This document shows positions 5,826 through 64,000 of a stretch of 64,000 nucleotides of DNA, piece after piece. A program made the translations under genes and the position numbers. The notes beneath the pieces are model-generated. The model was not told the DNA's origin. It searched no databases and worked only from the letters and a program-made list of their open reading frames with translations. The stretch comes from Oscillospiraceae bacterium (GTDB taxonomy: Bacteria; Bacillota; Clostridia; Oscillospirales; Oscillospiraceae): assembly GCA_902790375.1 (NCBI GenBank), contig CADARY010000012.1, positions 44,886 to 108,885 on the forward strand. The letters are read 5' to 3'. Positions within the stretch are counted from its first letter, which is position 1. Each line of letters starts with the position of its first letter.

Positions 5826-5847
5826 AAAAAACCATCGGAGGTACCCA

Positions 5848-6942: not shown

Positions 6943-7020
6943 TCACTTCGATCGGCCGTCAGCGCGGAGGAGTGCTGACAGCATATTTCTGTACCGCAGA
7001 TACAGGGAGTTGATCGGAAT

Positions 7021-9614: not shown

Positions 9615-10015
9615 ACAGAGCACTGCAACTGTTTTTACTACTGGCCATTACGCTGTATTTTTTCGCACTGGTGCATTTTTCGCGCCGGAAGCGGGTTGAG
9701 CCGAAGTATATGCTCCTGTGGATCATATCCGGCGTCATGATGATCGCGCTTACCCTGTTTCCTGCGTTGCTGAATCGGGTGTCACGCTTTCTCGGTATTT
9801 ACGATCCGACGAATGCGCTGTTTGCCATCGTGCTCTTTTGCGTCATCATTATCCTGATGGCTCTGACGGCTATTCTCTCTCACCATAATGCAGATATTAT
9901 AAGACTGGTTCAGGAAAATGCTTTGCTGGAACAGCGTATCCGGGAGTTGGAGAATAAAGCCGAAACGGACGAAGCCATGAAGAGTGCCGAAAAAGGTGAA
10001 AGGAATGCAGTTTAA
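9611..10015 (+). CDS. DUF2304 membrane protein
   Basis: 134 residues with three predicted helices (about 3-20, 34-52, 68-90) and a C-terminal charged helix likely to coil (VQENALLEQRIRELENK). DUF2304 proteins are small partners of DPM1-like glycosyltransferases and may help flip or anchor them. Its start overlaps the GT2 stop and its end overlaps the next GT2 by 11 bases, so the three are tightly coupled. Confidence 0.85.
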   Translation: MNRALQLFLLLAITLYFFALVHFSRRKRVEPKYMLLWIISGVMMIALTLFPALLNRVSRFLGIYDPTNALFAIVLFCVIIILMALTAILSHHNADIIRLVQENALLEQRIRELENKAETDEAMKSAEKGERNAV

Positions 10016-10811: not shown

Positions 10812-10879
10812 GCCTTATCGGAGAACACATTGTGGAGAGAATCACATTACCGGAGTACAGAGAGAAGGAAAAAACGAGC

Positions 10880-11443: not shown

Positions 11444-11447
11444 ATAT

Positions 11448-12401: not shown

Positions 12402-12411
12402 GGCGATCAAA

Positions 12412-13257: not shown

Positions 13258-14186
13258 ATAAGGAAGCAGAAAAGATCGCCATTTTGCTGGCGTCCTATAA
13301 CGGGGAAAAGTACATAGCGGAGCAGATCGAATCCCTGCTTAAGCAGACGGAAGCGGGATGGGAGCTGTTCATCCATGACGACGGTTCGACGGACTGCACG
13401 CCGGTAATTCTCCGCCGCTATGAGGCGCGGTATCCGGATCGAATCCACGTTCTGGACGGTCCCCCGTGCGGCGGCGCAAAGGACAATTTTCTCCGGATGC
13501 TGCGGGAGGTCCGGGCGCCCTATGTGATGTTCTGCGATCAGGATGACGTATGGCTTCCCGAAAAAATGGAAGTTACACTCGGGGAAATGAAACGGCTCGA
13601 GGTGAAGCACGGCGCGGAGAAGCCGCTGCTTGTGTTCACGGATCTGTGCGTGACGGATGAGCGTCTGCATCCCATCGCCGCGCGGCTGAGCGCCTATCAG
13701 AAGCTCGATCCGCGGCGCACAAAAGCGAAGGAGCTCATGATCCAGAATGTGATTACCGGCTGCACCGTCATGCTCAACCGCGCGCTGGTCAAACTTGCGA
13801 TCAGGCCCGAGAACACCACCGGGATCATCATGCACGACTGGTGGTGCGCGCTGATTGCGGCCTCCTTCGGCGCTGTTTCCTATGTGGACCGAGCGCTTGT
13901 CCTGTACCGTCAGCACGGCGGCAACTCTGTGGGCGCGAAAAATCTGAACAGCCTGCGCTATTTAACAGCGAAAATCAGGAGACCGACAGGCATCCAAAAT
14001 TCTCTGCTGGCAACACGGCGTCAGGCCGCGCTCCTTGCGGAGACCTTTCCCGGCGCGGACGCGATTTTCCGCGAATACGGGCGGCTCGGCGGCAAAAGGA
14101 AGGGCGAGCGGCTTCGCTTCTACGCGAAAAACGGAATTTGGAAAAGCGGCTGGCAGCGGAATCTGGGGCTGTTGGTCTGGGGGTAA
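13254..14186 (+). CDS. GT2 family glycosyltransferase with no standard start codon
   Basis: About 310 residues. Motifs IAILLASYNGEKYIAEQI, IHDDGSTDCTP, MFCDQDDVWLPEKM and a YRQHGGNS box mark a rhamnosyltransferase-like GT2, similar to the product at 11448. The domain begins a few residues after the RfbD stop, and no ATG, GTG or TTG lies in frame where the start should be. AAGGAGA (13240-13246) is placed seven bases before GTA 13254, exactly where a GTG overlapping the rfbD stop would be expected. Either a point change or base error altered the start, or translation begins at ATT 13248 or GTA. The upstream in-frame extension within rfbD is unlikely. Confidence 0.8.
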   Translation, partial: VNKEAEKIAILLASYNGEKYIAEQIESLLKQTEAGWELFIHDDGSTDCTPVILRRYEARYPDRIHVLDGPPCGGAKDNFLRMLREVRAPYVMFCDQDDVWLPEKMEVTLGEMKRLEVKHGAEKPLLVFTDLCVTDERLHPIAARLSAYQKLDPRRTKAKELMIQNVITGCTVMLNRALVKLAIRPENTTGIIMHDWWCALIAASFGAVSYVDRALVLYRQHGGNSVGAKNLNSLRYLTAKIRRPTGIQNSLLATRRQAALLAETFPGADAIFREYGRLGGKRKGERLRFYAKNGIWKSGWQRNLGLLVWG

Positions 14187-14205
14187 AGGAAAGGATTTTA
14201 TTAGC

Positions 14206-17200
14206 GTGAACACGGAAAAAAACCAACCGCGTGCGTCGATCATTATTATCGCGTACAACGACGAGGCGCATATCGAACGGGCGATACAGAGCGCCTGTAA
14301 TCAGACCGAAAGCAATATTGAGATCATTTGTGTTGACGACGGATCCATGGACTCTACCTATGAGCGCATGTGTCAGTGCGCGGCCCGGGATGATCGGATC
14401 AAAACGATCACCCAGCCGAACAGCGGGATTCTCGCCGCGCGGTACGCGGGCCTTCAGCAGGTTTCCGGCGAATATACCCTGCTTATAGACTCGGACGATT
14501 TCCTTTTACCGGACGCAGTAAGAACGGCATACGACGCTGCGGACAAGCTCGGTGCGGACGTTCTGGAATACGGGATCAAACTTGAAAAGAGCAGCACTGA
14601 CCCTCCATCCGAAGTGGTGTGGCGCTACTCAGAACGCTATTATTCCCAGGACAAGCCGCTGCCTGAGGCGATCAGCGGACCCGAACTGATTAATGCCTGC
14701 TATGCCGATCGGGCAATGCCATGGAATGTCTGGAACAAGCTGTACGATACTGCGTTACTGCGGAGAGCCTTGCGGGAATACCGGGGAGAACGGATCTGCA
14801 TGTGTGAGGACATGCTGATTACGCTGATGGTTCTGTGCCATGCGAAGCATTACGCGCGCATAGATGCGAAGCTGTATTCGCATCTGGTCGGAGGCGGAAT
14901 GTCTTCAACATCAGATAGTATGGGTTCTTCTGAGCACATAAAGCGCAGGGGTATTGAATGGCTCGTCCTGAAGCTGGCGCGGGAATGGCTGAACAGAATC
15001 GCTTATCCCCAAATTGAAATCACTCGTGGTATGGAGGCGTTCGGCTGGGAAATCCTGGAAAGCACGATTGCCAGCCTGACTACGAGAAACTCTCGGGCCG
15101 TGCTTGCGGAGTACCTCGTCCAGCTTTCACAGCTTTGTAAAGCGGAGGAATTCTCGGACCTGTTGAGCATATGCATCGAACGTCAGCAGGCCCTTCTGGT
15201 ACAGTCAGCAAAAGAGGAGCGGCAGCTCGGCGTAGACCTGCGCCAGGAGCGCGAGCGGGCCGCGCGGCTGGAGGAGGATAAGCGACGGCTCAGCGAAGTC
15301 CTGGGGCAGCAGCGCACACAGATCGCACAGCTTGAGGCGCAGAACCGCAATCTCAGCGTGAGCTTTGAGACCATCTCCAATTCGACCTGCTGGAGGATCA
15401 CAAAACCGGTTCGTGTTGTTTTGGATACAGTAAAGGCATTGCCGTACAAAGGGAAAGCGTATATCCTTCTTGCTAAAAAGGCGGCCGTTATTCTGAGGAC
15501 TCAGGGAGCCAAAGCGGTTTTTGAAAAGTACAGACAGAGAAGGCTTCGCTTGCGTAAAGCATACAATCTGACGGGATCAGGTCGTGTTACCCGCAATTCC
15601 TTTGTCGATGATGCAGGGGAAGAACAGGAGCCTGTCATTCCACAGGAATGGCTTGATATTCAACGGCAAAAGCCGCTGATTTCGATTGTGATTGCAGCAA
15701 AACGCCTGGATGTGCGCGCTCCGTATCTGAAAAAAGCGCTTGCGTCCTTATGTGCACAGCGCTACCAAAACCTGGAGGTCATTGTCGTTGCGGATGCGGT
15801 GGATATGCCCTTTGTCCAGGAGCTGATACGCTCCTTTGATGCGCAAATCACACTGAGAAGCGTTATGCTGGAATGTGATGCGCAGAATCGGTGGGCGTAT
15901 TGGTGTGAGGGCATATCTGCGGCGAGTGGGGATCTGATTGGTTTCCTGGAGCAGGAGGACACGCTGAGTCCCAATTGCCTGGCCTATGTGCTTGAGGCAT
16001 ATAATGAGTCAATGGTCAAAAACTGTGAGCTTTATCTGATTCCGGATGAATCGCAGACGAAAGACGATGAGACACGTTTTAAGGATTGGAAGTCTGGAGC
16101 CGGCTGGCATTGCGGCGGAGCGGATGGCTTGCTGCACTTCGGCGTGTTTGACAAGAGGCGTTTTCTGTCCGATCAAGCCGCATTTGAACAATGGCTGCTC
16201 TCCTTGAAACCGGAGCAGATTTTTGTCGCGCCTTGGGTCGGCTGCCGTGAAGCCGCGATAGAAAATCTTTGGGGCGATAACAGCGTCAAATGCCTTGCGT
16301 TCTACCTGCCTCAATTCCATGAGATTCCCGAGAATAACCGGTGGTGGGGAGAGGGCTTCACAGAATGGGTGAATGTCAGGAAGGCCGAGCCTCTCTATCA
16401 GGGCCATCATCAGCCCAGAATCCCGGGCGAGCTGGGGTATTACAATTTGGGCGGAGCGGAAGGAGCCGAGATTCAGAAAAAACAGATCGCGCTGGCCAGG
16501 GAGTACGGTCTTGCGGGCTTCTGTTATTACTATTACTGGTTCGACGGCGGAAAGCGCCTGCTGGAAATGCCGCTGGACAGGCATCTTCACGATAAGACGA
16601 TGGACTTCCCGTTCTGTCTGTGTTGGGCGAACGAAAACTGGACGCGCCAATGGGACGGACAGCAGAGTGAAATCCTCATGCCTCAAACCTATCAGCCCGG
16701 TTGGGCCGAGCAATTTATTCTTGACCTGTTGCCCTATCTGAAGGACGAGAGATATATCCGCGTCAACGGAGCGCCTTTCCTGTTGATTTACAATTTGCAG
16801 GATATTCCGAATCCTTCCGAGGCAATCAACACCTGGCGGGCGGTTGCGGAGCAAAACGGCATAGAAAGGCTGCATATCTCTGCGGTAAGACGGACGATGG
16901 AGTCCGGCGAGCTGGAGTTGTCCGGGCATTCTCTGGACTCCCTGACAGACTTCCCGCCGCATCTTCTTGGGCTTGTGAACATCGACCATGATGAGGACGT
17001 CAGATTCAGGCTTCCCCACGGACAGGTAAAGGATTATCGAAAAGCGGCCAGCTTCTGCGCGGAGATGCCCAAACAGAATTACACCTATTTCCGTACGGCC
17101 ATGCTGGAATGGGACAATACCGCCAGACGGGGGAAAAAAGCTTACATATTTGAAGATTTCTCCATGAAAGAGTATCAGAAATGGCTTTACGCCGCAAAGA

Positions 17201-17349
17201 GATATACGCTCCGTCAGAACCGCCCCGGAGAGGATCTTGTGTTTATCAATGCCTGGAATGAATGGGCTGAGGGTACGTATCTGGAGCCATCTGAACCGTG
17301 GGGCAGAGCCGCTCTCGACGCGACGAAAGAAGTGCTGGAGAGGAGATAA
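14206..17349 (+). CDS. Multidomain glycan enzyme: GT2 - coiled coil - GT2-like - WbsX/GH99-like
   Basis: 1,047 residues from GTG 14206. Residues 1-230 form a GT2 domain ([36 protein letters not shown]). A charged coiled coil lies at about 325-390. A second GT2-like domain follows at about 485-620 ([13 protein letters not shown]); its expected DxD is altered to EQED, so activity there is doubtful. From about 690 comes a WbsX-type domain (GH99-like): [23 protein letters not shown] split around its conserved Trp/Glu, [12 protein letters not shown] and [16 protein letters not shown]. WbsX domains occur in O-antigen and rhamnan loci. One polypeptide could therefore carry two or three steps of chain building. 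Confidence 0.88.
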   Translation: [1047 protein letters not shown]

Positions 17350-17357
17350 CGATCAAC

Positions 17358-18263
17358 ATGAATAAGAGTATTTCCGTGATTGCACCGGCATACAACCATG
17401 AAAAATACATTGAATCGTGCCTCTGGTCCATCGCAAAGCAGAGCTGCAGGGAAATGGAGCTCATCGTTCTGGACGACTGTTCAAAGGACAGAACGCGGGA
17501 TATTATCCAGCAGGTGCTCGCACAGGAGAGCTTCTGCGAAAGATTCTCCATGGGCGTCAGGTTTATTCCGCACGAGAAAAACAAAGGTGCACATGATACC
17601 ATCAACGAGGGCCTGATGATGGCGAAGGGGAATTACCTCGCCGTTATCAATACCGACGACGCCTTTGGAGAGGAGCATCTTGAACTGCTTTTGGACGCCT
17701 GCGAGCGGGAGAACAGTGAATTTGCATTCGGCGGGGTTCGTGTGGTCGATGAAAATGACCGGCTGGTCAACGAAGGATATGGGAAGGCCATCATGAAGTA
17801 TCAGGATACGGCGCGCATGTGTCCGACCATTACGATGGCCCTGACCAGAGGCAACTCCACAATCAGCACGGGGAACATGGTCTTTACCGCAAGACTCTAT
17901 CGGGAACTCGGAGGATTCAGAAACTATAAATACGTACATGACTGGGATTTCGCGCTGCGCGCCGCACTGATCACGGAGCCAGTTTTCGTTCCGGAGGCGT
18001 ATTACGTTTATCGGCTGCATGGAGGAAACACCATCAGTGAAATTGCAGGCCACCCGGAAGAAGCCGACAAAACGGAAAACGCGGAAGACGGTTCGACTCC
18101 AAACCCGTTGATTCAATTTATGCAGAAAATCCTGAGAGGCGAATATACCAACACGAGAATTCCTTGGTTTCCTGTCTGGGAGTATTTCTTTCAGTACAAA
18201 AAATACTACTCCGATGATACCAACGCCAAGTCGGCATGGGCCGAGGCAAAAAAACTACAGTAA
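17358..18263 (+). CDS. GT2 family glycosyltransferase
   Basis: 301 residues from ATG 17358, eight bases after the WbsX gene. Motifs: ISVIAPAYNHEKYIESCL, VLDDCSKDRT and LAVINTDDAFGEEHLELL with the TDD metal site. FVHDWDF-like text appears as YKYVHDWDFALRA, and YRLHGGNT resembles the same box in the rhamnosyltransferases nearby. No membrane segment. It is probably one more sugar-adding step of the same polysaccharide. Confidence 0.88.
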   Translation: MNKSISVIAPAYNHEKYIESCLWSIAKQSCREMELIVLDDCSKDRTRDIIQQVLAQESFCERFSMGVRFIPHEKNKGAHDTINEGLMMAKGNYLAVINTDDAFGEEHLELLLDACERENSEFAFGGVRVVDENDRLVNEGYGKAIMKYQDTARMCPTITMALTRGNSTISTGNMVFTARLYRELGGFRNYKYVHDWDFALRAALITEPVFVPEAYYVYRLHGGNTISEIAGHPEEADKTENAEDGSTPNPLIQFMQKILRGEYTNTRIPWFPVWEYFFQYKKYYSDDTNAKSAWAEAKKLQ

Positions 18264-18313
18264 CAGGATGAAATCCGGTGAGACAGTCCAACTGATTGAC
18301 CATTAAACAATTG

Positions 18314-18709
18314 ATGAAAACTTCAATTTGTCGGCACATCAACAAACCTGCAGAGCGGACAATTCAAGTATTCGGTTGGGGTTCAATACCAGGATGCGAA
18401 AGTTCAAAAAATGAAGTTTATTTATTTCTGGATGACGAAGCACATCGTGTCTATTACAAACTCGCATCCGGTCAGGAGCGTCCGGATGTCGCGGCTGCGC
18501 TGGGTGATCCCCGGCAGCTTCATGCTGGCTTTTCTGTAAGGACTGTTCTTCCGGATGATTTTACCATGACGGAGAATGTTGAGATTGGTTTCTGTGTTGT
18601 AAACAGAGAAGAAAAACAAGTCGCGGAATTGACAAGAGGGACTGTCAAAATGGTCTTTGAGAACGCAGATGAACGTATACAAACAGCATCGCAGCCTGGA
18701 GTATTCTGA
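18314..18709 (+). CDS. Stand-alone beta-sandwich domain (sugar-enzyme accessory), possible fragment
   Basis: 131 residues from ATG 18314; an in-frame TTG 18296 is also possible and neither has a good RBS. The sequence IQVFGWGSIPGCESSKNEVYL, then YYKLASGQERPDVAAALGDP and GFSVRTVLP, resembles a beta-sandwich domain usually appended to glycosyltransferases or DUF2142-like proteins in surface-glycan loci. Here it stands alone, 50 bases after a GT2, with no enzyme attached. It could be a separated accessory protein or a leftover of a larger gene. Confidence 0.5.
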   Translation: MKTSICRHINKPAERTIQVFGWGSIPGCESSKNEVYLFLDDEAHRVYYKLASGQERPDVAAALGDPRQLHAGFSVRTVLPDDFTMTENVEIGFCVVNREEKQVAELTRGTVKMVFENADERIQTASQPGVF

Positions 18710-18918
18710 ACCCGCTGATGACATTGCTGATCATGCGCGTCGTGTTTGGTCACTTCTTTGGCAGCGCGATCCCAGATTCTAGTTTCCCACTCACCGGACC
18801 AGGTGCGCAAGCTGTGCAATAAGGTACTCTGGCTTCATTAGGGGCGGCAGATCGACTTTGGAGAAACCGGGGGAATATGTGACCGTTACCAGGCATTTCT
18901 GCATGGAGAAATCAAACT
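18710..18918 (+). other. Non-coding or decayed stretch
   Basis: About 200 bases between the accessory domain and the next GT2. Only short broken frames are seen and no motif is recognised. The SD of the next gene (GGAG near 18905) is at its end. Confidence 0.4.
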
Positions 18919-19788
18919 ATGAACGTCAGCGTCATCATCCCCACGCTCAACGCAGAGCGTTGGATCACCCGACAACTGAATATGCTGCTGAGCCAGACCG
19001 TGGAGGCAGAGATCATCGTCATTGACTCCGGCTCGGCGGACAGTACGCCCGCCATTGTCAGGCGCTTTGCCCCGCGCGTGCGGCTGCTGGAGATTCCGCC
19101 CAGGGACTTCGACCACGGCGGCACGCGGGATTACGCCCTGCGGCAGAGCACGGGGGATTATGTGCTTTTCTTTACTCAGGATGCCATACCGACGGATACC
19201 CGCTGCATCGAAAAGCTGCTCGCGGCCTTCTCCGCCCCGGATGTCGCGGCGGCTTACGGCAGGCAGATTGCTTACCCCGACGCCCCGGAATACGAAAAAC
19301 TGACCCGGCAGTTCAATTACCCGGATCAGCCAAGAGTCTGGCGGGAGGCGGACATTCCCCGCTACGGGGTCAAGGCGTATTTCTTTTCCGACGCCTGCGC
19401 CGCCTACCGGAGAGACGCCTATCTTGCCGTCGGCGGCTTTGACGCGCCCATCATCACCAACGAGGATATGATGATGGCGGGCAAGCTGCTCCACGCGGGA
19501 TACGCGCTGGCCTATACGCCGGAGGCGGCGGTGCATCACTCTCACCGCTATACGCTGGGAGAAGAATACCGCCGCAACAAAAAAATCGGCCTCGTCATGG
19601 AGCAGTACCGGCCACGTCTCACAGGCGCAGAGGCTGACGCCGAGGGCTGGCGCATGCTCCGCTTTGTCGGCGGTGAGCTTGCACGGGAGGGACGCATCGG
19701 CGAACTGTTTGACTTTTTAGCGCACGTGTGTGTCAGGTTCGCAGGAAACCGGATTGGAAAACGCAAGGGAAAGCGGAGCGGGACATGA
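18919..19788 (+). CDS. GT2 rhamnosyltransferase-like protein
   Basis: 289 residues. Motifs: VSVIIPTLNAERWITRQL, IDSGSADSTPAIV, the FDHGGTRDYA box found in RfbN/RfbF-type rhamnosyltransferases, and FFTQDAIPTD. A C-terminal basic helix may touch the membrane. It is the last gene of the polysaccharide cluster and is closed by the strong terminator at 19847. Rhamnose as donor fits rfbC/rfbD upstream. Confidence 0.88.
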   Translation: MNVSVIIPTLNAERWITRQLNMLLSQTVEAEIIVIDSGSADSTPAIVRRFAPRVRLLEIPPRDFDHGGTRDYALRQSTGDYVLFFTQDAIPTDTRCIEKLLAAFSAPDVAAAYGRQIAYPDAPEYEKLTRQFNYPDQPRVWREADIPRYGVKAYFFSDACAAYRRDAYLAVGGFDAPIITNEDMMMAGKLLHAGYALAYTPEAAVHHSHRYTLGEEYRRNKKIGLVMEQYRPRLTGAEADAEGWRMLRFVGGELAREGRIGELFDFLAHVCVRFAGNRIGKRKGKRSGT

Positions 19789-19846
19789 GGCTGATTGTCC
19801 TGCTCTCCGCACGCCCCCGCAGGAAAAACGAATGAATGACAGACAG

Positions 19847-19899
19847 TATTGGGCGGATTCGCAGTACATCCTTTTTGCGAATCCGCCCAATATTTTTTT
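19847..19899. terminator. Strong bidirectional terminator
   Basis: A perfect 17-base stem (19847-19863 with 19876-19892) around a 12-base loop, followed by seven T. It ends the polysaccharide cluster and, on the other strand, the exonuclease gene ending at 19907. Confidence 0.9.
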
Positions 19900-54288: not shown

Positions 54289-54319
54289 CACGGGCGGCTA
54301 TCAGCCGCCCGTGTTGTTT
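54289..54319 (+). terminator. Terminator of the PepSY gene
   Basis: CACGGGCGGCT (54289-54299) pairs with AGCCGCCCGTG (54303-54313), followed by TTGTTT. Confidence 0.9.
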
Positions 54320-54422
54320 AAGGCAACACCGCACAATCCGCCTTCGGCATCTCCTGGAAAATTTGTGCCCTGATTTCGTCACTTTTTCTTGAGGTACACA
54401 AAGTACATCTGCATTGCCTTAA
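54318..54422. mobile_element. MITE-like element
   Basis: TTAAGGCAA (54318-54326) and TTGCCTTAA (54414-54422) form terminal inverted repeats around about 90 bases without coding capacity. The start AAGGCAACACCGCACAAT resembles a repeat I recall from Ruminococcaceae genomes. No target duplication could be defined. Confidence 0.5.
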
Positions 54423-54436
54423 TAAATATGATGGCG

Positions 54437-56251
54437 TCAGGTCTCCTGGCCGGCAAACTGCGTCATGTACAGGCGGTAGTAGTCGCCCTTCCTGTTGAGC
54501 AGCTCCTCATGGGTTCCGGTCTCGATGATGTGCCCCTGCTCCATGACGACGATCTCGTCCGCGTCGCGGATCGTGGACAGGCGATGGGCGATAATGAGGC
54601 TGGTGCGGTCTTTCATCAGCTTTATCATGGCGTTCTGGATATGCTTTTCGGTGCGGGTATCGACGCTGGAGGTAGCCTCATCCAGAATCAGGATCTTCGG
54701 ATAGCTGAGGAAGGCCCGCCCTATGGTCAGAAGCTGCCGCTGCCCCTGGGAGAGACTTGCGCCCGCGGCGGTCAGCACCGTATCGTAGCCGTCCGGCAGC
54801 GCCGCCACCACTTTGTCGCAGTTGGAGCTTTCGGCCGCCTCGATCATCTTCTTGTCGGAGATGGTGCGGTCGGCGTATTTGAGATTGCTGCGCACGGTAT
54901 CGGTGAACAGAACGCTGTCCTGCAGGACGATGCCCACCGCGTCGCGCAGCACATCGCAGGAGATGTCCCGGATATCCACCCCGTCGACCGTGATGGAGCC
55001 GCTGTCCAGCTCGTAAAAGCGCATCAGCAGATTGACGACGGTGGTCTTGCCGGAGCCCGTGGAGCCGACCAGCGCTATTTTTTTGCCTGCCTCCACCCTG
55101 AGATTGAAGTCGTAGATGACCTGCTTGCCGGGGACGTAACTGAAATTCACGTGCTTGAATTCAATGATGCCCTCATGAACGGGCAGGGCGTTGTCGCCGC
55201 TCTTGTCCTCGCTCTCCTCATCGAGCACGGAGAAGATGCGCTCGGCCCCGGCCACGGCGGTCTGGATCTGACCGTAGAGCTGCGCAAGCTCGTTGATCGG
55301 GCGGCTGAACTGCTTGGAGTAAATGATGAACGCGGAGATCACGCCGACCGAGATCATGCCGCGAAGCGCAAACCAGGCGCCGAAGGCCGCTACGATCACA
55401 AAGGAGAGGTTGTTGATCATATTCATCAGCGGCCCCATGGCGTTGCCGATGACATCGGCGATGATGCCGGCCCTGGTCAGCGCGTCGCTGGTCGCGGCAA
55501 AATCCCGGATCGTGGCCTCCTGGAGATTATAGGCCGCGACGGTCTTCCCGGCGCTGACCTTTTCTTCGACAATGCCGTTGAGCTGCCCCAGCAGCACCTG
55601 CCGACTGAGATAGTAGCGCCGCATGAGCCTGGACAGCACATTCGTCACGATCAGGGACAGAACCACGGTTACGCAGGTCAGCAGCGTCAGCCTGACACTG
55701 TAGCTGAGCATCATGATCACCGTGCCGACGAGCGTCAGTACGCCGGAGAACAGAGAGGACAGGGAGGAGCTGATGACGTTGGAGACGTTTTCGGCGTCGT
55801 TGGTCATGCGGCTCATGAGATCGCCGTGGGAGTGATTGTCAAGATAGGGGATGGGCAGATTGATGACCTTGCCGAAAAGCTCCGCGCGCAGACGGAAAAT
55901 GACCCGCTGCCCGAGGCGGGCCGACAGAAAGCCCTGCAGAAGCGTGGCAATACCGTTTATGATGTATACGCAGAGCATCATGCCGAGCAGCGGCGGGATG
56001 GCGCTGAAATCCCGCGCGACCAGATCGTCGATCACAGAGCTCTGCAGGCGCGGTGCGATCACGCCCGCCGAGACGGCCAGCACGACGCTGAAGGCCAGAT
56101 AGATCACATATTTCCGCTCCGGGCGGAAATAGCCCAGCAGACGGCGGAGGGTCTGCCGCCCGGCCCGGGGCTTCTCCGTGGGCGCGCCCAAATTGGGGCC
56201 GCGCCGTCCGAAGCCCTGCTGCGCGGCCCTGGACTGTACGCTGCCGCTCAT
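54437..56251 (-). CDS. ABC exporter half-transporter, second of a pair
   Basis: 604 residues. A basic, low-complexity N-terminal segment (about 1-40) precedes six membrane helices (about 45-330) and an ATPase: Walker A GSTGSGKTT near 403, signature LSQGQ (instead of LSGGQ), Walker B ILILDEATSSVD and the H-loop in AHRLST. It overlaps the upstream exporter gene by four bases (ATGA), so the two form a heterodimer like LmrCD or BmrCD. The substrate may be a drug, lipid or peptide. No C39 peptidase domain is present. Confidence 0.93.
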   Translation of the reverse strand: MSGSVQSRAAQQGFGRRGPNLGAPTEKPRAGRQTLRRLLGYFRPERKYVIYLAFSVVLAVSAGVIAPRLQSSVIDDLVARDFSAIPPLLGMMLCVYIINGIATLLQGFLSARLGQRVIFRLRAELFGKVINLPIPYLDNHSHGDLMSRMTNDAENVSNVISSSLSSLFSGVLTLVGTVIMMLSYSVRLTLLTCVTVVLSLIVTNVLSRLMRRYYLSRQVLLGQLNGIVEEKVSAGKTVAAYNLQEATIRDFAATSDALTRAGIIADVIGNAMGPLMNMINNLSFVIVAAFGAWFALRGMISVGVISAFIIYSKQFSRPINELAQLYGQIQTAVAGAERIFSVLDEESEDKSGDNALPVHEGIIEFKHVNFSYVPGKQVIYDFNLRVEAGKKIALVGSTGSGKTTVVNLLMRFYELDSGSITVDGVDIRDISCDVLRDAVGIVLQDSVLFTDTVRSNLKYADRTISDKKMIEAAESSNCDKVVAALPDGYDTVLTAAGASLSQGQRQLLTIGRAFLSYPKILILDEATSSVDTRTEKHIQNAMIKLMKDRTSLIIAHRLSTIRDADEIVVMEQGHIIETGTHEELLNRKGDYYRLYMTQFAGQET

Positions 56252-57996
56252 GCCGTCGCCTCCTCTCGAAGCTGGGAATCATAGATATCCCGATAGATGG
56301 GGCTTGCCGCCATCAGCTCCCGATGGGTCCCGCAGGCGGCGATGGTCCCGCCGTCAAGCACGACGATGCGGTCCGCGTTCTGTACCGAGGCAATGCGCTG
56401 GGCAATGATGATCTTTGTCACATCGGCATAGCTGCGGCTGAGAGCCTCATACAGCTTCGCCTCCGTCTTGAGGTCGAGGGCGCTGGTGGAATCGTCAAAT
56501 ATCAGGATCTCGCCGCGCTTTAAAAGGGCGCGGGCGATGGCGACGCGCTGGCGCTGTCCGCCGGAGAGGCTCATGCCGCGCTCCGCGACGGGGGTATCGT
56601 AGCCCTGCGGCTGCTGCCGGATAAAGCCGTCCGCCTGGGCGGCCTTCGCGGCCTCCTCGATCTCCGCCTGCGTGGCGTCCGGCCTGCCGAGGGCGATGTT
56701 ATCGCGGATGGTGGTTGAAAACAGCTCGCTCTTCTGCAGGCAGATCGTAACCTTTTCCCGCAGGGCCTCAGGCTCCCAGGCGCGCACATCCGTGCCGTCC
56801 ACCAGGACCTGACCCGCCGTCACATCGTAGAAGCGGGGGATGAGATTGACAAGGGTGGTTTTGCCGCAGCCGGTGGAGCCGATGATGGCCAGCGTTTCCC
56901 CGGAGGCGATGTCGAGGTTGATATCATGCAGCACGTTTCTGCCGTTGGCGGCATAGGCAAAGCACACGCCCCGGAAGCTGACGGAGCCCTTCTGCCCGTC
57001 GGCGGCAGGGGAGAGCGTCCCGTCCCGGACGATGGCGGCCCCGGTATCCAGCACCTCGCCCAGACGCCGGGCCGAGGCCATGCCGCGCGAGAGCGTCTGA
57101 AAGATCATGGCGAGCATCATCATGCCGTTGAGGATCTGGGAAATGTAGGTGATGGCGGCCATGACCATGCCGGGGGCGACAGAGCCCTGCCGCACCTGCA
57201 CCGAGCCGACATACAGAATCCCCACCACGGCAAGGTTGAGCACGATGTTCATGACCGGGCGCAGGAAGGACAGCATGACCTGCACGTTAAACTGGGTGTC
57301 CACAAGCTGGCGGTTTGCCTCACCGAAGCGCTCCTGCTCGCGCTTTTCCTGAACGAAGGCCTTGACCACACGGATGCCGGCCACATTCTCCTGAATGACG
57401 CCGTTGAGGCGGTCAAGACTCTCCTGCAAAACGGTAAAGAGCGGGTTCGTGCGCCAGACAACAAAGATAATGTCGATCAAAATGAGCGGGAAGGCGCAGG
57501 CCACGATCGCGCCGAAGCTCAGGTCAAGGCTCACAAGCGCCGCCGTACCGCCGACAAAAAACATCAAGCAGCGCACAAAGCCGCGGATCATCTGCATGAC
57601 GAGCTGCTGGAGCTGCGTAACGTCATTTGTGATGCGCGTGATGAGCGAGCCGGTGGAGAAGCGGTCGGTCTGCTCAAAGCTCAGATGCATGATCTTCTCA
57701 AAGCAGGCCTTGCGGATATCGTTGCCGTAATTCTGCCCGGTGATATTGGCAAAAAGGCCCGAGCCGATGCCGCACAGACCGCCCGCAATCACGACCAGCA
57801 GCATCCGGACCCCGGTGGAAACCACCAGGTCAAGATTGGAAACGCCGCCGCTGCTCACACCGAGGATGCCCTCGTCGACGATACGCTGCATCATGCGCGG
57901 CTGGTAGAGATCCACATACACCTCTGCCACCATAAAGCCCGCGGCCAGCAGGGCGGAGAACCAATATTTTTTCAGATATTTGAGTAAATTCTTCAT
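56248..57996 (-). CDS. ABC exporter half-transporter, first of a pair
   Basis: 582 residues. Six membrane helices at about 15-310 (FSALLAAGFMVAEVYVDLYQ onward) are followed by an ATPase with GSTGCGKTT (Walker A), LSGGQRQR (intact signature) and ILIFDDSTSALD. In this Walker B region the usual catalytic Glu is Asp (DD), which marks the degenerate ATP site of heterodimeric exporters. The partner at 54437 supplies the Glu but a changed signature, consistent with one active site per dimer. No clear promoter was found upstream. Confidence 0.93.
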   Translation of the reverse strand: MKNLLKYLKKYWFSALLAAGFMVAEVYVDLYQPRMMQRIVDEGILGVSSGGVSNLDLVVSTGVRMLLVVIAGGLCGIGSGLFANITGQNYGNDIRKACFEKIMHLSFEQTDRFSTGSLITRITNDVTQLQQLVMQMIRGFVRCLMFFVGGTAALVSLDLSFGAIVACAFPLILIDIIFVVWRTNPLFTVLQESLDRLNGVIQENVAGIRVVKAFVQEKREQERFGEANRQLVDTQFNVQVMLSFLRPVMNIVLNLAVVGILYVGSVQVRQGSVAPGMVMAAITYISQILNGMMMLAMIFQTLSRGMASARRLGEVLDTGAAIVRDGTLSPAADGQKGSVSFRGVCFAYAANGRNVLHDINLDIASGETLAIIGSTGCGKTTLVNLIPRFYDVTAGQVLVDGTDVRAWEPEALREKVTICLQKSELFSTTIRDNIALGRPDATQAEIEEAAKAAQADGFIRQQPQGYDTPVAERGMSLSGGQRQRVAIARALLKRGEILIFDDSTSALDLKTEAKLYEALSRSYADVTKIIIAQRIASVQNADRIVVLDGGTIAACGTHRELMAASPIYRDIYDSQLREEATA

Positions 57997-58270
57997 CTTA
58001 TCATTCCGCGATCCTGTTGCCCGCAGCCCGGCTCCCGCTCCCTTGCGGGCTCCGGGCTTTTGCGCGCAGGATCATACTGCCTGTCCTGTTTTCCCTGAAA
58101 AAATAGCATAAAACAATGGACGTGTCAAGAAAAGCCACGGCGCGCGGAAGCGGAAAAAAACGGCGCGGGATGCATGAATGATTATGCGGCGCGGCCCCTG
58201 GGATATCCGCTCGGCTTATCCGGAATAAGGACATTCCGTGCCGCAATAGGATGAAGCGGAGGTGATGCGC

Positions 58271-58600
58271 ATGCTGGAAAGCGCGCTTTTGCTGATGATG
58301 AACGGTCTTCTCCTCATGCTCCGCATTGCGCCGGGGGAATCCTTCCCGAAGCCCCTGAGCCGGGAGGAGGAGAGGGCGTACCTGGAGCGCTGGCTGGATG
58401 GGGACCTGGAGGCCCGCAACAAGCTTGTCGAGCACAATCTGCGTCTTGTGGCTCACATCGTAAAAAAATACTACCAGAATGACGATGCGGACGATCTGAT
58501 CTCCATCGGCAGCATCGGCCTGATCAAAGGGATCAATACGTATAAGCCGGACAAAGGGGTGCGCCTTGCGACCTATGCCAGCCGCTGCATTGAAAATGCT
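58271..58600 (+). pseudogene. sigK: SigK N-terminal fragment, broken at the skin-type crossover point
   Basis: ATG 58271 follows CGGAGG at eight bases. The frame gives a SigK/SigE-like start: [20 protein letters not shown], then [36 protein letters not shown] and [12 protein letters not shown]. Here it stops resembling a sigma factor. The next residues should be EILMYFR; instead unrelated sequence follows to a stop at 58991. The break is at bases AATG (58595-58598). In B. subtilis the skin element joins sigK halves at AATGA within this same CIENE codon run. This is therefore either one end of a skin-like insertion or a decayed gene. Regions 3 and 4 of sigma are missing. Confidence 0.75.
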
Positions 58601-59012
58601 ACCCTCCCGTTATGGAACAAAGGTTCCGGCGCAGGCCCGACGCCGGATCGACCCCCGCGGCATGCCTTATTTCGATTCAGCCCCCTTGTCGGCGGACGAG
58701 CCTTTGCCCGCGCCGCTGTCAAGCTTTTCAATGATGGAATCGATCAGCGCCAGCTTCTGATCGGAGGGACAGGAAAGGCTTTTTACCCTGGACAGAAGAA
58801 AATCCGCATGTACGCGGGCAACCCTCAAAAACAGGCACCTCCCATGCGCATAAAGCAGACAAAACGACAACGCCCGTATCCGCTCTGGTTCTGCGGGGCT
58901 TCCATTGAGGCGCTGACCCAAGCATATGCCTGCGAGGCGGCTGAAAGAAGACGCGCGCCTGCGCCGGCGAGCGCGGCTTCTTCAGCTTAAAAAAACCGGG
59001 GCGATGAATGAC
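58601..59012. other. Unrecognised sequence right of the sigK break
   Basis: About 400 bases with no convincing gene on the plus strand. An 84-codon frame on the minus strand (58921-58667) ends with a helical, charged stretch ([18 protein letters not shown]) and could be the tail of a truncated protein, but has no good start or SD. No serine recombinase, as in skin elements, is visible. Confidence 0.4.
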
Positions 59013-59041
59013 TTGACGAAAACAGAGCATAAGCGTATAAT
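59013..59041 (+). promoter_or_regulatory. Promoter of the PrsW gene
   Basis: TTGACG (59013-59018), 17 bases, TATAAT (59036-59041). Confidence 0.75.
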
Positions 59042-59104
59042 TCAACACAGTTCTTTTCCGATGCGGTCGCATTTAGAAAAAAAGATATATTCACAGGAGG
59101 ATTT

Positions 59105-59866
59105 ATGGGAATCTTATCTGTTGTACTCACCATCGCCATTCTGGGCTTTCTGTATTGGCGCATGATCAAAAGAGAAACCCCGGAGCAGATCGGAGCGTTT
59201 CAGGCCCTGCTTCCGCTTGCGCTCGGCGTCGGCTCTATGTTTCTCGGAGCGCTTGCCACCGTCCTGCTTGCCAAAGCTTTCGGGGGCATGGCGAATATGC
59301 TCACGGGGAACAAAGGCTTCGGCGGCTCGCTGCTGCGTTCCTTTCTCATGGCCGGCTTTACGGAAGAAGCCGCAAAGCTGCTCATGATTCTCCTTTCGCT
59401 TGTGATCCTTAAATCCAGGGTCAAAAATGTCTATGAATACGTTTTGATCGGCGCGGCTGTCGGCTTCGGCTTTGCGGTAGCGGAGGAATTTTATTACGGC
59501 GACGCGGGCGCCGGAGGGGGCGCCTCGGATTACGTCTCCCTTGTCGGGAGAATGATCTCGGTTCCGGCGCACATGACGTTCAACATGGTCATGGGCGAGC
59601 TTCTGGGCAGAGCCAGATACGACAGGCTGACAGGGAAGGGCTCTCCGGCTCTGGACTGCGTCCTGGCGCTTCTGCTCCCGGTGTGCGCGCACACATTGTT
59701 TGACGCCTGCACGATCTTCAACAGCAAGCTGATGAGCGGAGAGATGAGCGGCATCGTGATTGCGCTTGCAGGCTATGTCGGGCTTATGATTTACGAAATC
59801 GCGGTGCTGATCCGCTTCAGGAAGAACACGGAGAAGTTCTGCGGCATGCGTACCTCCGCGGTATAA
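59105..59866 (+). CDS. PrsW-family intramembrane metalloprotease
   Basis: 253 residues from ATG 59105 after GGAGG. About eight membrane helices. The PrsW motifs are FTEEAAKLLMI (E87, E88), FGFAVAEEFYY and the histidines in VPAHMTFNMVMG and VCAHTLFDAC. In B. subtilis, PrsW performs site-1 cleavage of the anti-sigma factor RsiW; the target here is unknown. It has its own promoter and terminator. Confidence 0.92.
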   Translation: MGILSVVLTIAILGFLYWRMIKRETPEQIGAFQALLPLALGVGSMFLGALATVLLAKAFGGMANMLTGNKGFGGSLLRSFLMAGFTEEAAKLLMILLSLVILKSRVKNVYEYVLIGAAVGFGFAVAEEFYYGDAGAGGGASDYVSLVGRMISVPAHMTFNMVMGELLGRARYDRLTGKGSPALDCVLALLLPVCAHTLFDACTIFNSKLMSGEMSGIVIALAGYVGLMIYEIAVLIRFRKNTEKFCGMRTSAV

Positions 59867-59896
59867 ACCCGCCCCGTTTCGGGCAGATCGAATATG

Positions 59897-59929
59897 GAGC
59901 GCCTCTTCTTCCGGGGAGGCGCTCTTTTT
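59897..59929 (+). terminator. Terminator of the PrsW gene
   Basis: GAGCGCCTC (59897-59905) pairs with GAGGCGCTC (59916-59924), then five T. Confidence 0.9.
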
Positions 59930-59957
59930 CCGCATTGCGCTTTTTGAATCTTACCCC

Positions 59958-59986
59958 TTGATTTTTTATGCAATTTCTGGTATATT
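59958..59986 (+). promoter_or_regulatory. Promoter of the small membrane-protein gene
   Basis: TTGATT (59958-59963), 17 bases, TATATT (59981-59986). Confidence 0.6.
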
Positions 59987-60091
59987 AGCTTGCAGCTCGC
60001 AGCGTATAAATCCCAAGGCGTTGCAGTAGATAACAGAATGAACCCCAAAAGCTTCATTCACAAAGAAAACCAGTTTTAGGAGGAACAAATC

Positions 60092-60520
60092 ATGAGTCTT
60101 GAACAAAGTCAGAAAATCATCAAGGTGCTGGGTATCCTCAGCATTATCTCGGCTGTGCTTGGCATAATCCTCGCAGTCAGCATGCTTGGCCTCACCGGCT
60201 TTGGCGCCGCAACGATGGATTCCGCAACGATGGACGATGAAACCGCCGGCGGTCTGGTCAGCCTGGGCCTGATCGGGGTCGTCGTTCTTGTGGGCGCGGT
60301 CGTGGATCTGCTCCAGGGGATCTTCTCCCTGCAGGCCGCAAAGGACGCCTCCAAGGCTTTGCCCCTCTGGATCATCTCGATCGTCGGCGTTGTGCTGAGC
60401 GTGATCTCTCTTATCAACAGCTTCGGCGGCGGTACGCAGGGGATCTTCTCCGCCATCTTCGGCCTCGCTGTCAGCTGCGGCATTTTCTATCTGGCCAACA
60501 TCATTAAGAAGAATGCGTGA
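60092..60520 (+). CDS. Small four-helix membrane protein
   Basis: 142 residues from ATG 60092 after AGGAGG. Four hydrophobic segments (about 12-35, 54-78, 88-107, 115-135) separated by short loops, one holding the small repeat ATMDSATMDD. No charged active-site motif is visible. Proteins of this size and layout are common and unnamed in Clostridia. It has its own promoter and is closed by the hairpin at 60584. Confidence 0.75.
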   Translation: MSLEQSQKIIKVLGILSIISAVLGIILAVSMLGLTGFGAATMDSATMDDETAGGLVSLGLIGVVVLVGAVVDLLQGIFSLQAAKDASKALPLWIISIVGVVLSVISLINSFGGGTQGIFSAIFGLAVSCGIFYLANIIKKNA

Positions 60521-60583
60521 ACATAGTGCCTTTATCACGCATTTGGCAGCAATTGTGATCGAGGCTATCCTGAATTGATGAAT

Positions 60584-60650
60584 ATGGGTATCAGTTGAAG
60601 CCGGCTTTCTCCCAAGATCCGATGAAATGGCGACTGATACCCATTTTTTC
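60584..60650 (+). terminator. Terminator with long loop
   Basis: ATGGGTATCAGT (60584-60595) pairs with ACTGATACCCAT (60633-60644), followed by five T. The 37-base loop is unusual. Confidence 0.75.
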
Positions 60651-60679
60651 GTCACATGCTTGATTAAGGAGGAACGGAT

Positions 60680-61360
60680 ATGCAGTACAATATTCACGGA
60701 GACAACATGCCGGTGGTGATCTGCTCGCTGGACGATGGGGAGTCCATGATCTGCGAAGCCGGCGCCATGAGCTGGATGACGCCGAACATGGAAATGGAGA
60801 CAAAGAGCGGCGGAGCGGGAAAGCTCTTCGGTCGTGTCTTTTCCGGCGAGACGGCGTTTCAGAACTATTATACTGCCCGCGGCGGCAGCGGCATCATTGC
60901 CTTTACTTCCTGCTTCCCCGGCGACATTCTGGCTGTGGAGGTCACCCCGGAAAAGCCCATTGTCATCCAGAAGAGGGCGTTCCTTGCCTGCACGACCGGC
61001 GTCCAGATGGAGGTCGTTTTCCAGAAGAAGCTGGGTACCGCAATCTTTGGCGGAGAAGGCTTCATCATGCAGAAGCTGTCCGGCAGAGGCACTGTTTTCC
61101 TTGAAATCGACGGCAGCACCATCAACTACAGCCTCAAGCCCGGACAGCAGATGCTGATCTCCACCGGACATCTGGCGATGATGGACGAGTCGGTCACGAT
61201 GGATATCCAGCAGGTCAAGGGCGTGAAGAACGTCCTCTTCGGCGGCGAGAGCCTGTTCAACACGGTCGTCACCGGACCCGGCACCGTCACCCTGCAGACG
61301 ATGCCCATGACGAATCTGATTTCCGCAATTATCGCAAGGCTGCCGGGCAAGAGCGGCTGA
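60680..61360 (+). CDS. AIM24/TIGR00266 family protein
   Basis: 226 residues. The family signs are an early GESMICEAGAMSWM, then ETKSGGAGKLFGRVFSGE, and FTSCFPGDILAVEV. The fold is a beta-prism-like double repeat of unclear function, related to mitochondrial AIM24. The protein is soluble and has no signal peptide. AAGGAGG precedes ATG 60680, and the gene is flanked by terminators on both sides. Confidence 0.92.
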   Translation: MQYNIHGDNMPVVICSLDDGESMICEAGAMSWMTPNMEMETKSGGAGKLFGRVFSGETAFQNYYTARGGSGIIAFTSCFPGDILAVEVTPEKPIVIQKRAFLACTTGVQMEVVFQKKLGTAIFGGEGFIMQKLSGRGTVFLEIDGSTINYSLKPGQQMLISTGHLAMMDESVTMDIQQVKGVKNVLFGGESLFNTVVTGPGTVTLQTMPMTNLISAIIARLPGKSG

Positions 61361-61371
61361 CACACATACAG

Positions 61372-61414
61372 AAAGCGCCGGTCAGGTCCTTTTGGGGATC
61401 TGAACCGGCGCTTT
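61372..61414 (+). terminator. Terminator of the AIM24-like gene
   Basis: AAAGCGCCGGT (61372-61382) pairs with ACCGGCGCTTT (61404-61413 and on), with a partly paired loop and trailing T. Confidence 0.8.
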
Positions 61415-61470
61415 TGCGGTGAAAATATTTTGAAAAATATCTGGTATACAGAGCTTTGCCTGCCGCGCCA

Positions 61471-62745
61471 TTATTGCCCCGCTTTTTTCCTGATTTTCTC
61501 TCTGGGAAGCGCGTGCTTTGTAAGCCTTTTCGGAAACGGACCCTCAGCCTGAAACGGTATCCCGAGTTCCTTCAGGACAGCTTCAAAGGCGTCCGTATAT
61601 TTCTTCTCATCCAGAAGCTGCATGAAGCTGAGAAAAATCCTGTCTCCCAGGGAGGATACCTCGAGCAGCACGTGCCCTTCCACGATGAACACGAAGGAAT
61701 CCACATAGTCCGCGACTTCGCCCCAGTCCATCCAGCCTGTGTAGTTGGCAATAAAGGTTCCGTGCTGGGCGTTTTTTCCCGCGAAGGGATCATGCTTTTT
61801 GAAATATGTCAGCTTTTGCTTCTGCCCATGGATCGTTTCCAGCTCTTCGAGAAAACAGAATTCCTTCCTCAGCTCCGCGAAGCTGACACTGGGATCGGTC
61901 TGCAGGGCGATCTGCCCTCTTGTCATGGTCCCGAGCTTCTCCATATCCCATTGCAGCTGCTCGCGCGTATAATCCAGATGGACATGGCTGAGCAGATCAA
62001 TATGGCTTTGCGGCATGCCGAGGCTTGCGGAGGGGTTATGCGCCGTCTCGCCGCCGATGACGCGGATCTTCTCCGGGAGCACCTTGTCCAGCGCCTTTGC
62101 CATCACATTGTTCTTCGCAAAGGACAGGATGTCCTTCTGGGCGAATGTATAGAGCCGAAAGTTGGGCTTTCTCTTAAACGGATTATACATGCCGTTGAGA
62201 TAATCCAATCCCAGAACCGCCGGCTTTTTACTGTTGTAGCGGTAGATCGGCGGCTCACCGCCCAGCATATCGAGCGTCGGCTCCTCATCCTCCCCCGGGA
62301 GCAGGGGGCTGTCCGGCTTGCGTATCGCCGGGGCGTTCGGCACGACATGGTATCTCTCTATGATGTACTGATACACCGTGGTCATGACCCAGGGCTGCGC
62401 GCCTCTGCCGCCGCACAGGGCATGGCTGATATAGAAGTTGATCTCCCGGCCTTCGCACTGCACAAACAGCAGATGCCCGTTCACAGCGCGGCTTCCCAGC
62501 CTGGGAAGGCGTCTTGTCCTCCCGAGGATCACGACCTGCTCCGGATTCGACGCAAGGACATAGCCGCCGTCTTCATCCAGGCCGACCCTGACAGCGAAAT
62601 AGGGATACCGCCTGATCGCAATATTCACGGCGGACTTGAGCGTTTTGACATCCACCTTTTCCTTCATCACGACGCGAATACGCATAATCATGGCGAAAAC
62701 GGATTCGTCCTTATATAATTTGAATGTATTGAGGCTGTATTTCAT
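61471..62745 (-). CDS. Condensation/acyltransferase-fold protein
   Basis: 424 residues. The N-terminal half shows the chloramphenicol-acetyltransferase-like fold of NRPS condensation and alcohol acetyltransferase families: VKTLKSAVNIAIRRYPYFAV near 38, then ISHALCGGRGAQPW near 106 with the active His and the glycine pair. The usual Asp after the His motif is absent (Gly-Gly), so some members' HHxxxDG is reduced to H only. The C-terminal half (LGMPQSHIDLLSHV, HGTFIANYTG) completes the fold. It lies 83 bases after the methyltransferase-STAS gene on the same strand and may share its operon. Substrate unknown. Confidence 0.75.
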   Translation of the reverse strand: MKYSLNTFKLYKDESVFAMIMRIRVVMKEKVDVKTLKSAVNIAIRRYPYFAVRVGLDEDGGYVLASNPEQVVILGRTRRLPRLGSRAVNGHLLFVQCEGREINFYISHALCGGRGAQPWVMTTVYQYIIERYHVVPNAPAIRKPDSPLLPGEDEEPTLDMLGGEPPIYRYNSKKPAVLGLDYLNGMYNPFKRKPNFRLYTFAQKDILSFAKNNVMAKALDKVLPEKIRVIGGETAHNPSASLGMPQSHIDLLSHVHLDYTREQLQWDMEKLGTMTRGQIALQTDPSVSFAELRKEFCFLEELETIHGQKQKLTYFKKHDPFAGKNAQHGTFIANYTGWMDWGEVADYVDSFVFIVEGHVLLEVSSLGDRIFLSFMQLLDEKKYTDAFEAVLKELGIPFQAEGPFPKRLTKHALPREKIRKKAGQ

Positions 62746-62828
62746 GCAGTTGTCTCCTTACGCATCGCAGCTTGTCAAATCAGCAGAGCCGGACCGGTTT
62801 TTTTCATAAGCGGCAAGGACCTGGCATA

Positions 62829-64000
62829 TCAGTGGAAAATGGAATCAAAGCCGGTCTGCTCCAGAATTTCCCTCACGGTCTCGTTTTCGCCGTGAAGGGA
62901 GACCCTGCCCGCGCAGGCCTTGTGCATGATCAGCAGCACGCGCAGGCCGGCGGAGGAGATGTATTCGAGGCGGCTGCAATCCACCTCCACGGCATCCGGC
63001 GACTGCTCTGCCTTTATCTTTTCAAAGAAGGACAGCAGGCTCGGCGCGGTGATCGTATCAAGCCGCCCCGTCAGCGCCAGGGACAGCGTGCCTGACTGCA
63101 TGGAGGCGTCGGCATGAAAGTCCTTCGTCTCCGTGGAAGCAAGCGCCGCCGGCGCTCCGCCCGGGGTGATTTTCCAGAAGGCGCAATGCTTCATGCCCTC
63201 GCATACCGCGGCGGCCTGCTCAGGGCTGACCCTGTCCAGGGAAGCCAGCTTCGGCATGTTTTCGCCGACATTCACACGCTCGGCCTTCAAACCGTGCTTT
63301 GCAAGAAAAGCCATCGCTCGCCTGATGCTGCCCTCCATATCGGCAGGAGAGGCGATCAGCGCGTTTTTGCCGATCTCCACGTCGGACTTGTCCTTCGTCT
63401 GCTGCGTCGCATTCTTCATGATCTCCATGAAGCGATCGCCCACCAGGGCGCGCATGACAAGGACATACTGAAGGGAGCATTCCACGTCGGCCGTGTACCA
63501 GCAGCCGCCCTTCTTCTCCAGGATGCGGCGGATATTGTCGCAAAGCGCAGCCGCCTCAGAATCGGTAAAGTACATCAGCAGGCCCTCGGTGGTGATCGTG
63601 ACAGGGCCGTCGGTATCCTCGAGCGCTTTTTCCAGCGAGGCATAGTTGGTCGCGTCCACCTCCCGGAAGCGGGCATGCTCCCGCTGCTCCGCCGGGATCA
63701 GCGCAAGGATTTTGTCCGACGCCTCCCGGATGACCACCGGGAGATCCAGACCGTAATAGGTCAGGCCCTTCTCTGCAAATTCGATCGCCCGCGGCGTATA
63801 CCCGCAGGGCATATCCACCAGCGTACAGCCGGATTTCTCCGCCAGACCTGCCATCGTGCGGTAACGGCATTCCAGCATGATCGTGCCGCCCAGCACCTGC
63901 TCCGGCGACGCCTTCGTGTTCGCGCTGTTTTGCGTGGCCTCCAGCGTAAGGCCCATGCTCTTCGCCAGCGCCGCCGCGTCCCTGTCGCCGTTTGCGGCCA
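62829..64000 (-). CDS. Leucine-carboxyl-methyltransferase-like domain fused to STAS, 5' end beyond window
   Basis: At least 375 residues; the frame stays open to the right edge, so the true start may lie outside (ATG 63956 is the first inside, without a good SD). Near 46-56 of that version LVDMPCGYTPRAIEF is the SAM-binding box of the LCM/PPM1 family, followed by REVDATNYASL and ITTEGLLMYF. The last 90 residues are a STAS domain (LALTGRLDTITAPSLLSF, then VDCSRLEYISSAGLRVLL), as in SpoIIAA-type anti-anti-sigma factors, with the phosphorylatable Ser in SSAGLR. A methyltransferase-STAS fusion suggests regulated or scaffolded methylation. Confidence 0.82.
   Translation of the reverse strand, partial: AANGDRDAAALAKSMGLTLEATQNSANTKASPEQVLGGTIMLECRYRTMAGLAEKSGCTLVDMPCGYTPRAIEFAEKGLTYYGLDLPVVIREASDKILALIPAEQREHARFREVDATNYASLEKALEDTDGPVTITTEGLLMYFTDSEAAALCDNIRRILEKKGGCWYTADVECSLQYVLVMRALVGDRFMEIMKNATQQTKDKSDVEIGKNALIASPADMEGSIRRAMAFLAKHGLKAERVNVGENMPKLASLDRVSPEQAAAVCEGMKHCAFWKITPGGAPAALASTETKDFHADASMQSGTLSLALTGRLDTITAPSLLSFFEKIKAEQSPDAVEVDCSRLEYISSAGLRVLLIMHKACAGRVSLHGENETVREILEQTGFDSIFH

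Follow-up and report, generated by a model that had tools for sequence, protein, structure and literature searches.

A sigK gene divided between two contigs

The window analysed here is a 64,000-nucleotide stretch of an Oscillospiraceae genome, assembled in 95 contigs and 88.57% complete. It covers positions 44886–108885 of contig C12 and extends to the right-hand end of that contig. Near that end lies the 5' half of sigK (58262–58598, plus strand), 112 codons and a core at which the gene is truncated. SigK coding is open from a GTG at 58262, used here in place of the ATG at 58271 chosen in the original prediction, to an Asn codon at 58595–58597, and ends where that codon is directly followed by GCTACCC. 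The reading frame itself runs on to a stop at 58988–58990; position 59012, previously given as the end of the feature, has no meaning of its own. Two NCBIfam SigK models match the resulting 242-aa ORF (E 1.9e-42 over residues 3–115 and 6.9e-42 over residues 10–115).

Comparison with a close relative defines the point of interruption. A genus search (102 genomes, 77 with a match) included the sister genome G353, which has an intact, uninterrupted sigK (contig C6 from 8611; locus L226) with collinear outer flanks. The G353 matches listed comprise sigK and a sigE-like gene, with no recombinase among them. Window positions 54428–58598 are collinear with the G353 locus at 91% identity, and the match stops at 58598, so that sigK is indeed intact up to the core and then cut, as first proposed. 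This collinear stretch includes two ABC transporter genes (54428–58260, named from reading their translations), which form the left chromosomal flank outside the element; the 5' half itself is 96% identical to residues 1–112 of G353 SigK. The G353 gene resumes at 94% identity on another contig, at C59:2943–3300. The two matches overlap by exactly five bases, AAATG, which mark the attL crossover core at 58594–58598 (plus strand) and the same core at attR (C59:2943–2947). Of the 231 positions compared after putting the halves together in frame, 219 agree with the G353 protein; the last one compared is their own stop. Scanned without its last codons, G353 SigK passes one of two NCBIfam cut-offs (279.8 against 252; 269.6 against 298.65). 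Another genome, G174, was considered as the empty site and rejected in favour of G353, since its sigK is inverted and its neighbours lie elsewhere.

The element-side arm of attL (58597–58618, plus strand) is an imperfect inverted repeat of the recombinase-side arm on C59, matching at 13 of 22 positions and at 10 of the inner 12. From this arm symmetry we infer that the central dinucleotide of the core is AA.

The original prediction held that the window might contain one end of a skin-like insertion, with a 3' half starting EILMYFR-like behind AATGA and a serine recombinase elsewhere in the genome. Contig C59 supports it on all three points: the 3' half (NEILMYFR...) lies at C59:2943–3303, is preceded by AAATGA and stands directly behind a large serine recombinase. 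The opposite outcome, a complete sigK elsewhere and no 3' half, is not what the genome holds. Searches located sigma region 2 at 12 places and region 4 at 11. The 5' half as query found the window at 237.5 bits and the SigE gene second at 86.6, and the recombinase–3'-half protein found C59 first and the SigE gene next; beyond its own place, neither half matched anything in the genome better than the SigE gene. Because SigE is the next-best match to either half, the assembly holds one sigK, in two halves. A plain truncated pseudogene without any element is what the window alone would suggest, displaying only half a gene, but the C59 3' half with its matching core and recombinase, together with the collinearity with G353, contradicts this explanation and makes it very improbable.

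We conclude that the locus is probably a skin-like sigK-intervening element with derived features. In the mother cell, the recombinase on C59 would join attL (58594–58598) to attR (C59:2943–2947), which would restore sigK and set free a circle. In the host genome, homologues of Spo0A, SpoIIID, SigE and SigG reach their curated cut-offs; SigF has a best match, yet one below its own cut-off.

A large serine recombinase open into sigK

The recombinase gene (C59:1189–2943) adjoins the sigK 3' half and reads into it in frame, giving 704 codons from an ATG at 1189 to a stop at 3301–3303. Pfam identifies PF00239 (resolvase), PF07508 (recombinase) and PF13408 (zinc-ribbon) followed by Sigma70_r4 in the same frame, and the best NCBIfam SigK model covers residues 584–701 of this fused ORF. 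In an alignment of 20 recombinases, this one included, R13, S15 and R87 are the same in every sequence and R84 in nearly all; S15 is presumably the catalytic serine. SigK at this junction ends at a new stop, without the last five codons of the G353 gene. A SpoIIE-type phosphatase gene follows directly.

Such an in-frame fusion is peculiar to this genome, occurring at 1 of 92 comparable loci in which a recombinase lies beside a sigK 3' half. The C59 recombinase enters sigK in a frame other than that of most of its relatives, which is most simply explained by an indel in its variable tail.

Chromosomal genes between the two halves

The content between the sigK halves differs from that expected of an ordinary element. 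Immediately right of the core, 58599–59940 has no blastn match in the G353 locus; it encodes a small ORF and a PrsW-type intramembrane protease (59105–59866, plus strand; PF13367, E 1.6e-24). On C59, positions 1–2942, which carry a nucleosidase and the recombinase, likewise have no blastn match there. The intervening block of four genes (59941–64000, reaching the contig end) encodes a 142-aa protein, an AIM24 family protein, a 424-aa protein and a methyltransferase–STAS protein. In G353 the order is sigK, the four genes matching this block, then the SpoIIE-type phosphatase gene; what lies in G353 between the last of the four and the phosphatase gene matches only the C12 end and C59:3304–3340. 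Here the block lies right of attL, and the likely arrangement is 5' half, PrsW, block, gap, nucleosidase, recombinase, 3' half. The end of C12 and the start of C59 do not overlap, and the gap between them is unbridged. In G353, 59941–64000 does not belong to an element, so what separates the halves here is unlike the usual cargo.

The proteins encoded between the halves were also compared with the fetched loci. The PrsW protease, the 142-aa protein and the nucleosidase matched the window genome alone, and an AIM24 match in L143 lies beyond the sigK 3' half of that locus. The 424-aa protein has a 27% relative upstream of the recombinase in L162, perhaps inside that element; its remaining hits fall in chromosomal DNA of the window genome and of its genus mates. 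Pfam found no phage structural genes in the five proteins of 59105–64000 or in the C59 nucleosidase. The fourth protein of the block (62829–63998, minus strand) fuses a methyltransferase-like domain (LCM) to a STAS domain.

This arrangement raises the question of whether the halves lie at separate chromosomal places after a rearrangement, in which case recombination of attL with attR would cause a large deletion or inversion instead of the excision of a small element. The genes right of attL are chromosomal in G353, 61494–64000 is chromosomal in G174 as well, and the C12–C59 gap is unclosed. However, a single line accommodates everything (5' half, 58599–64000, gap, C59:1–2942, 3' half, phosphatase gene) with outer flanks as in G353, and the minimum distance between the halves, 8.3 kb, falls within the 3.6–15.3 kb of 20 sized elements; longer elements are indicated by coordinates in G284 (~18.5 kb) and G254 (~35 kb). 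We therefore regard rearrangement as unlikely, and the two contigs would join across one element.

The same oddities could stem from the assembly or binning, with mixed strains or indel errors producing the frame fusion and the odd gene order. The assembly is fragmented and incomplete, as noted above, and the oddities affect two genes. Yet the two contigs have similar blastn identities to G353 (84–96% for C12 and 89–94% for C59, one 88-base piece at 78% excluded), and the attL and attR arms match as a pair. An artefact thus seems quite unlikely, and a skin-like element stays the favoured reading.

A recombinase lineage mostly beside sigK

Relatives of the recombinase are associated with sigK. 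Among 300 family genomes searched with it, 281 had some match, and a sigK half abuts the recombinase in 25 (this locus included) of the best 30 loci, which were fetched. A scan of ~85,000 species genomes returned 481 relatives; a sigK-half match accompanied 77 of the best 80, some of these at 41–50% identity, a level at which a SigE paralogue would match too. Pooling gave 110 loci, 106 of them distinct after removal of 4 duplicates. In 3 of these the element is inverted and the recombinase adjoins the 5' half; in 11 no sigK abuts it.

In most of the 92 loci with a neighbouring 3' half, the recombinase and sigK share bases at the core. In 67 of them the core is AATGA, and its TGA serves as the stop codon of the recombinase. 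Another 17 have the core AACGA, and there the recombinase reads on in a frame other than that of sigK; in 7 the recombinase stops earlier, one of these having its 3' half 1.4 kb away. The frame able to use the TGA is common to 84 of the 92. sigK contributes the final base of this stop codon, where the predicted circle would have C. In the inverted elements (L028, L035 and L044), the data fit near-symmetric attP arms that allow inversion, with the central dinucleotide alone setting polarity.

These associations bear on how sporulation is read from genomes. Since the recombinase lineage lies beside a sigK half in most of the best relatives, interrupted sigK may be frequent in Clostridia-type genomes, where gene content decides whether sporulation is called, and a split sigK could be scored as missing in such genome-based calls. 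To us, the pattern in the relatives is more surprising than the window itself.

Several loci depart from the usual arrangement. L176 (G112, 18558–1717) and L174 (G091, 1119–19884) have sigK in three pieces with two intervening stretches, the breaks lying near codons 67–69 and 112. The 5' half is also broken near codon 70 in G154, G198, G170 and perhaps G288. The break at codons 67–69 probably lies close to nt 195, where an element of the B. cereus group is inserted (PMC10745906). In L184 (G023, 5675–8988), a 5' half with the usual attL arm has a recombinase only 1.4 kb downstream, with no 3' half within the 12 kb examined. In the genus mate G301 (C19:16781–17107), the sigK 3' half next to a recombinase is interrupted by two stop codons, and this sigK is likely dead. 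Four IMG/VR contigs (L249–L252) carry a recombinase of the same kind beside a sigK half; their presence in a viral collection indicates that such elements are already being binned as viruses.

A candidate directionality factor inside attL

Excision by large serine recombinases of known skin elements involves small directionality factors, such as CD1234 of 72 aa (available text of PMC5025042) and Skr of 64 aa (available text of PMC6957869). A small conserved ORF recurs in 11 of 20 elements here, and we built a profile from those 11. With a profile built without it, a window ORF just inside attL (58670–58981, minus strand, stop to stop) matches at E 3.6e-10. The alignment covers profile positions 60–98 of 108, the C-terminal part only, and the window candidate has no recognisable N-terminal motif.

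The profile recovers this ORF no more than 1.5 kb from the core at 26 of 37 interrupted sites, 9 of these 26 having supplied profile sequences, and in 25 of the 26 it is encoded on the strand opposite to sigK. The same search gave no hit at 28 uninterrupted loci; 6 of these loci (L080–L085) are probably sigE. Of the 11 remaining interrupted sites, 2 have the factor at a distance of 3–4 kb; the other 9, with 3 inverted elements among them, gave no match in the stretch examined. The predicted structure of the factor from the L091 relative is a helical hairpin (mean pLDDT 85), which has no PDB match at E <= 0.001; searches of Pfam and PHROGs gave no significant family for the candidate factor (best E 0.06 and 0.15). 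From its conservation and position, this ORF is a likely candidate for the directionality factor of the C59 recombinase.

The divergent factor is one of several observations that count against the main reading, along with the contig gap, the G353 chromosomal genes between the halves, the recombinase in the sigK frame, the shortened SigK and the 11 of 37 interrupted sites that have no candidate factor within 1.5 kb. Reduced activity or decay of the element is possible, given the chromosomal neighbours between the halves and the recombinase open into the sigK frame. Decay would mean that the element was once excisable but that its recombinase tail, its factor and the locus order are now damaged, sigK is dead and late sporulation is lost. 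A recombinase frame unlike that of 84 of 92 comparable loci, an unrecognisable factor N-terminus, neighbour genes between the halves, a shortened SigK C-terminus and the two stops in sigK of G301 all favour this scenario. Against it, both sigK halves and the recombinase are still open, R13, S15 and R87 are kept, and Spo0A, SigE, SigG and SpoIIID are still present. We give decay an appreciable chance, though one clearly short of even, and retain an element with derived features as the explanation of choice.

A possible split integrase

At 37 distinct interrupted attL sites, the frame continuing the recombinase past the predicted attP is open for at least 120 codons in 12, compared with 1 and 3 for the other two frames. 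One conserved protein occupies the continuing frame at 16 of the 37 sites, namely those 12 and 4 more with 93–107 codons that are apparently frameshifted. All three of these proteins that were scanned contain HTH_3 domains; one further site, L075, carries the conserved protein in another frame. Predicted circles from 17 genomes with both ends add 147–204 codons to the recombinase in 9 and 7–86 in 7, while that of the window genome adds 131 codons in a shifted frame with no match to the HTH protein. In 13 of the 16 cases a possible start codon occurs before codon 25, which speaks against the split-integrase reading set out below; in the other three, the first ATG, GTG or TTG is at codon 25 (L076), 35 (L133) or 43 (L121).

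These observations raise the possibility, less likely than not, that a clade of serine recombinases targeting sigK has its attachment site within the integrase gene. The free circle would encode a recombinase of ~560 aa fused in frame to a ~200-aa helix-turn-helix protein. Integration would cut the fused gene, with a sigK base turning TGC into the new recombinase stop TGA. Excision in the mother cell would then rebuild both sigK and the full-length recombinase–HTH protein, so that the element would carry its own switch between a form for excision and one for integration. On this reading the window genome is derived: its HTH part would be missing and its recombinase would have slipped into the sigK frame. 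A precedent exists in the SSV1-type integrases of archaeal viruses, whose attP lies inside the integrase gene so that integration splits it. The pattern resembles that proposed for some relatives here, but the SSV1 enzyme is a tyrosine recombinase, whereas here a serine recombinase is involved whose N-terminal part must work for excision.

Searches for the unsplit form weigh against this idea. The free attP pattern GGRTAGCRAATGCWAYCC occurs in 8 IMG/VR stretches and in 2 of 400 family genomes, and none of the 10 stretches has a recombinase, HTH-extension or sigK match at E <= 1e-3. We rejected them as free attP sites, as they look like chance palindromes; the attP pattern thus located no circular recombinase–HTH form in IMG/VR or the 400 family genomes. 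We also examined the best 80 of 140 viral relatives of the recombinase, in which L249–L252 are the members abutting a sigK half. In 5 of these 80 the HTH profile matches no more than 1.5 kb downstream of the recombinase gene, and no unsplit recombinase–HTH fusion was found among the 80. In two of the five, L292 (5587–6054) and L321 (5530–6075), an HTH ORF resembling the one behind attL overlaps the recombinase end in another frame, an arrangement that supports neighbouring separate genes and speaks against an ancestral fusion. Because of this separate frame, we lowered our estimate for a split integrase from not far short of even to doubtful. The frame common to recombinase and HTH protein may instead be inherited. 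Open-access titles and the openings of abstracts on split integrases and on sigK elements in this bacterial group describe neither. Ideas on direction control that can be put to the test come from the stop codon shared with sigK, from the candidate factor and from a possible splitting of the integrase.

Relationship to known sigK elements

Developmental DNA rearrangement by skin elements is a textbook subject, with Bacillus and C. difficile as the main known cases. The skinCd element of C. difficile is organised much like the one described here: it splits sigK, its large serine recombinase CD1231 lies immediately upstream of the 3' half and shares PF00239, PF07508 and PF13408 with the C59 recombinase, and it encodes the small directionality factor CD1234 (PMC5025042, available text). 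It differs in that the candidate factor here sits at the attL end on the minus strand, and the recombinase here is open into sigK, unlike that of skinCd. The same source places skinCd at a sigK site different from that of B. subtilis.

The B. subtilis skin element (SpoIVCA, Skr) shares with this locus AATGA at the point of recombination, a split sigK and a serine recombinase at one end, according to the available portions of PMC6957869 and PMC10745906. The latter confirms AATGA as the B. subtilis recombination site, as the original prediction had stated, and also describes three B. cereus strains with AATGA at nt 423 and another element at nt 195; the further proposal of the prediction, a cut in the same codons as in Bacillus, is conjectural. 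The recombinase of B. subtilis is encoded next to the 5' fragment of sigK, the one here next to the 3' half. The Skr gene and the start of spoIVCA overlap, and skin carries many prophage-like genes (same portions of PMC6957869 and PMC10745906). CD1234 and Skr come close to our candidate factor in size (available text of PMC5025042 and PMC6957869).

Alicyclobacillus phage MMB025 also resides inside sigK with a recombinase near a short core (PMC13141910, available text). It is a 105-kb infectious phage with a TCTC core according to that text, whereas the scanned window proteins include no phage structural gene.

A repeat of ~95 bases, assigned to no Rfam family at gathering score, is shared by three genus genomes. 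Its copies, 82–90% alike, lie at 54315–54413 in the window, where it is intergenic, at 19407–19497 in L194, and at 10686–10779 and 18410–18505 in L227.
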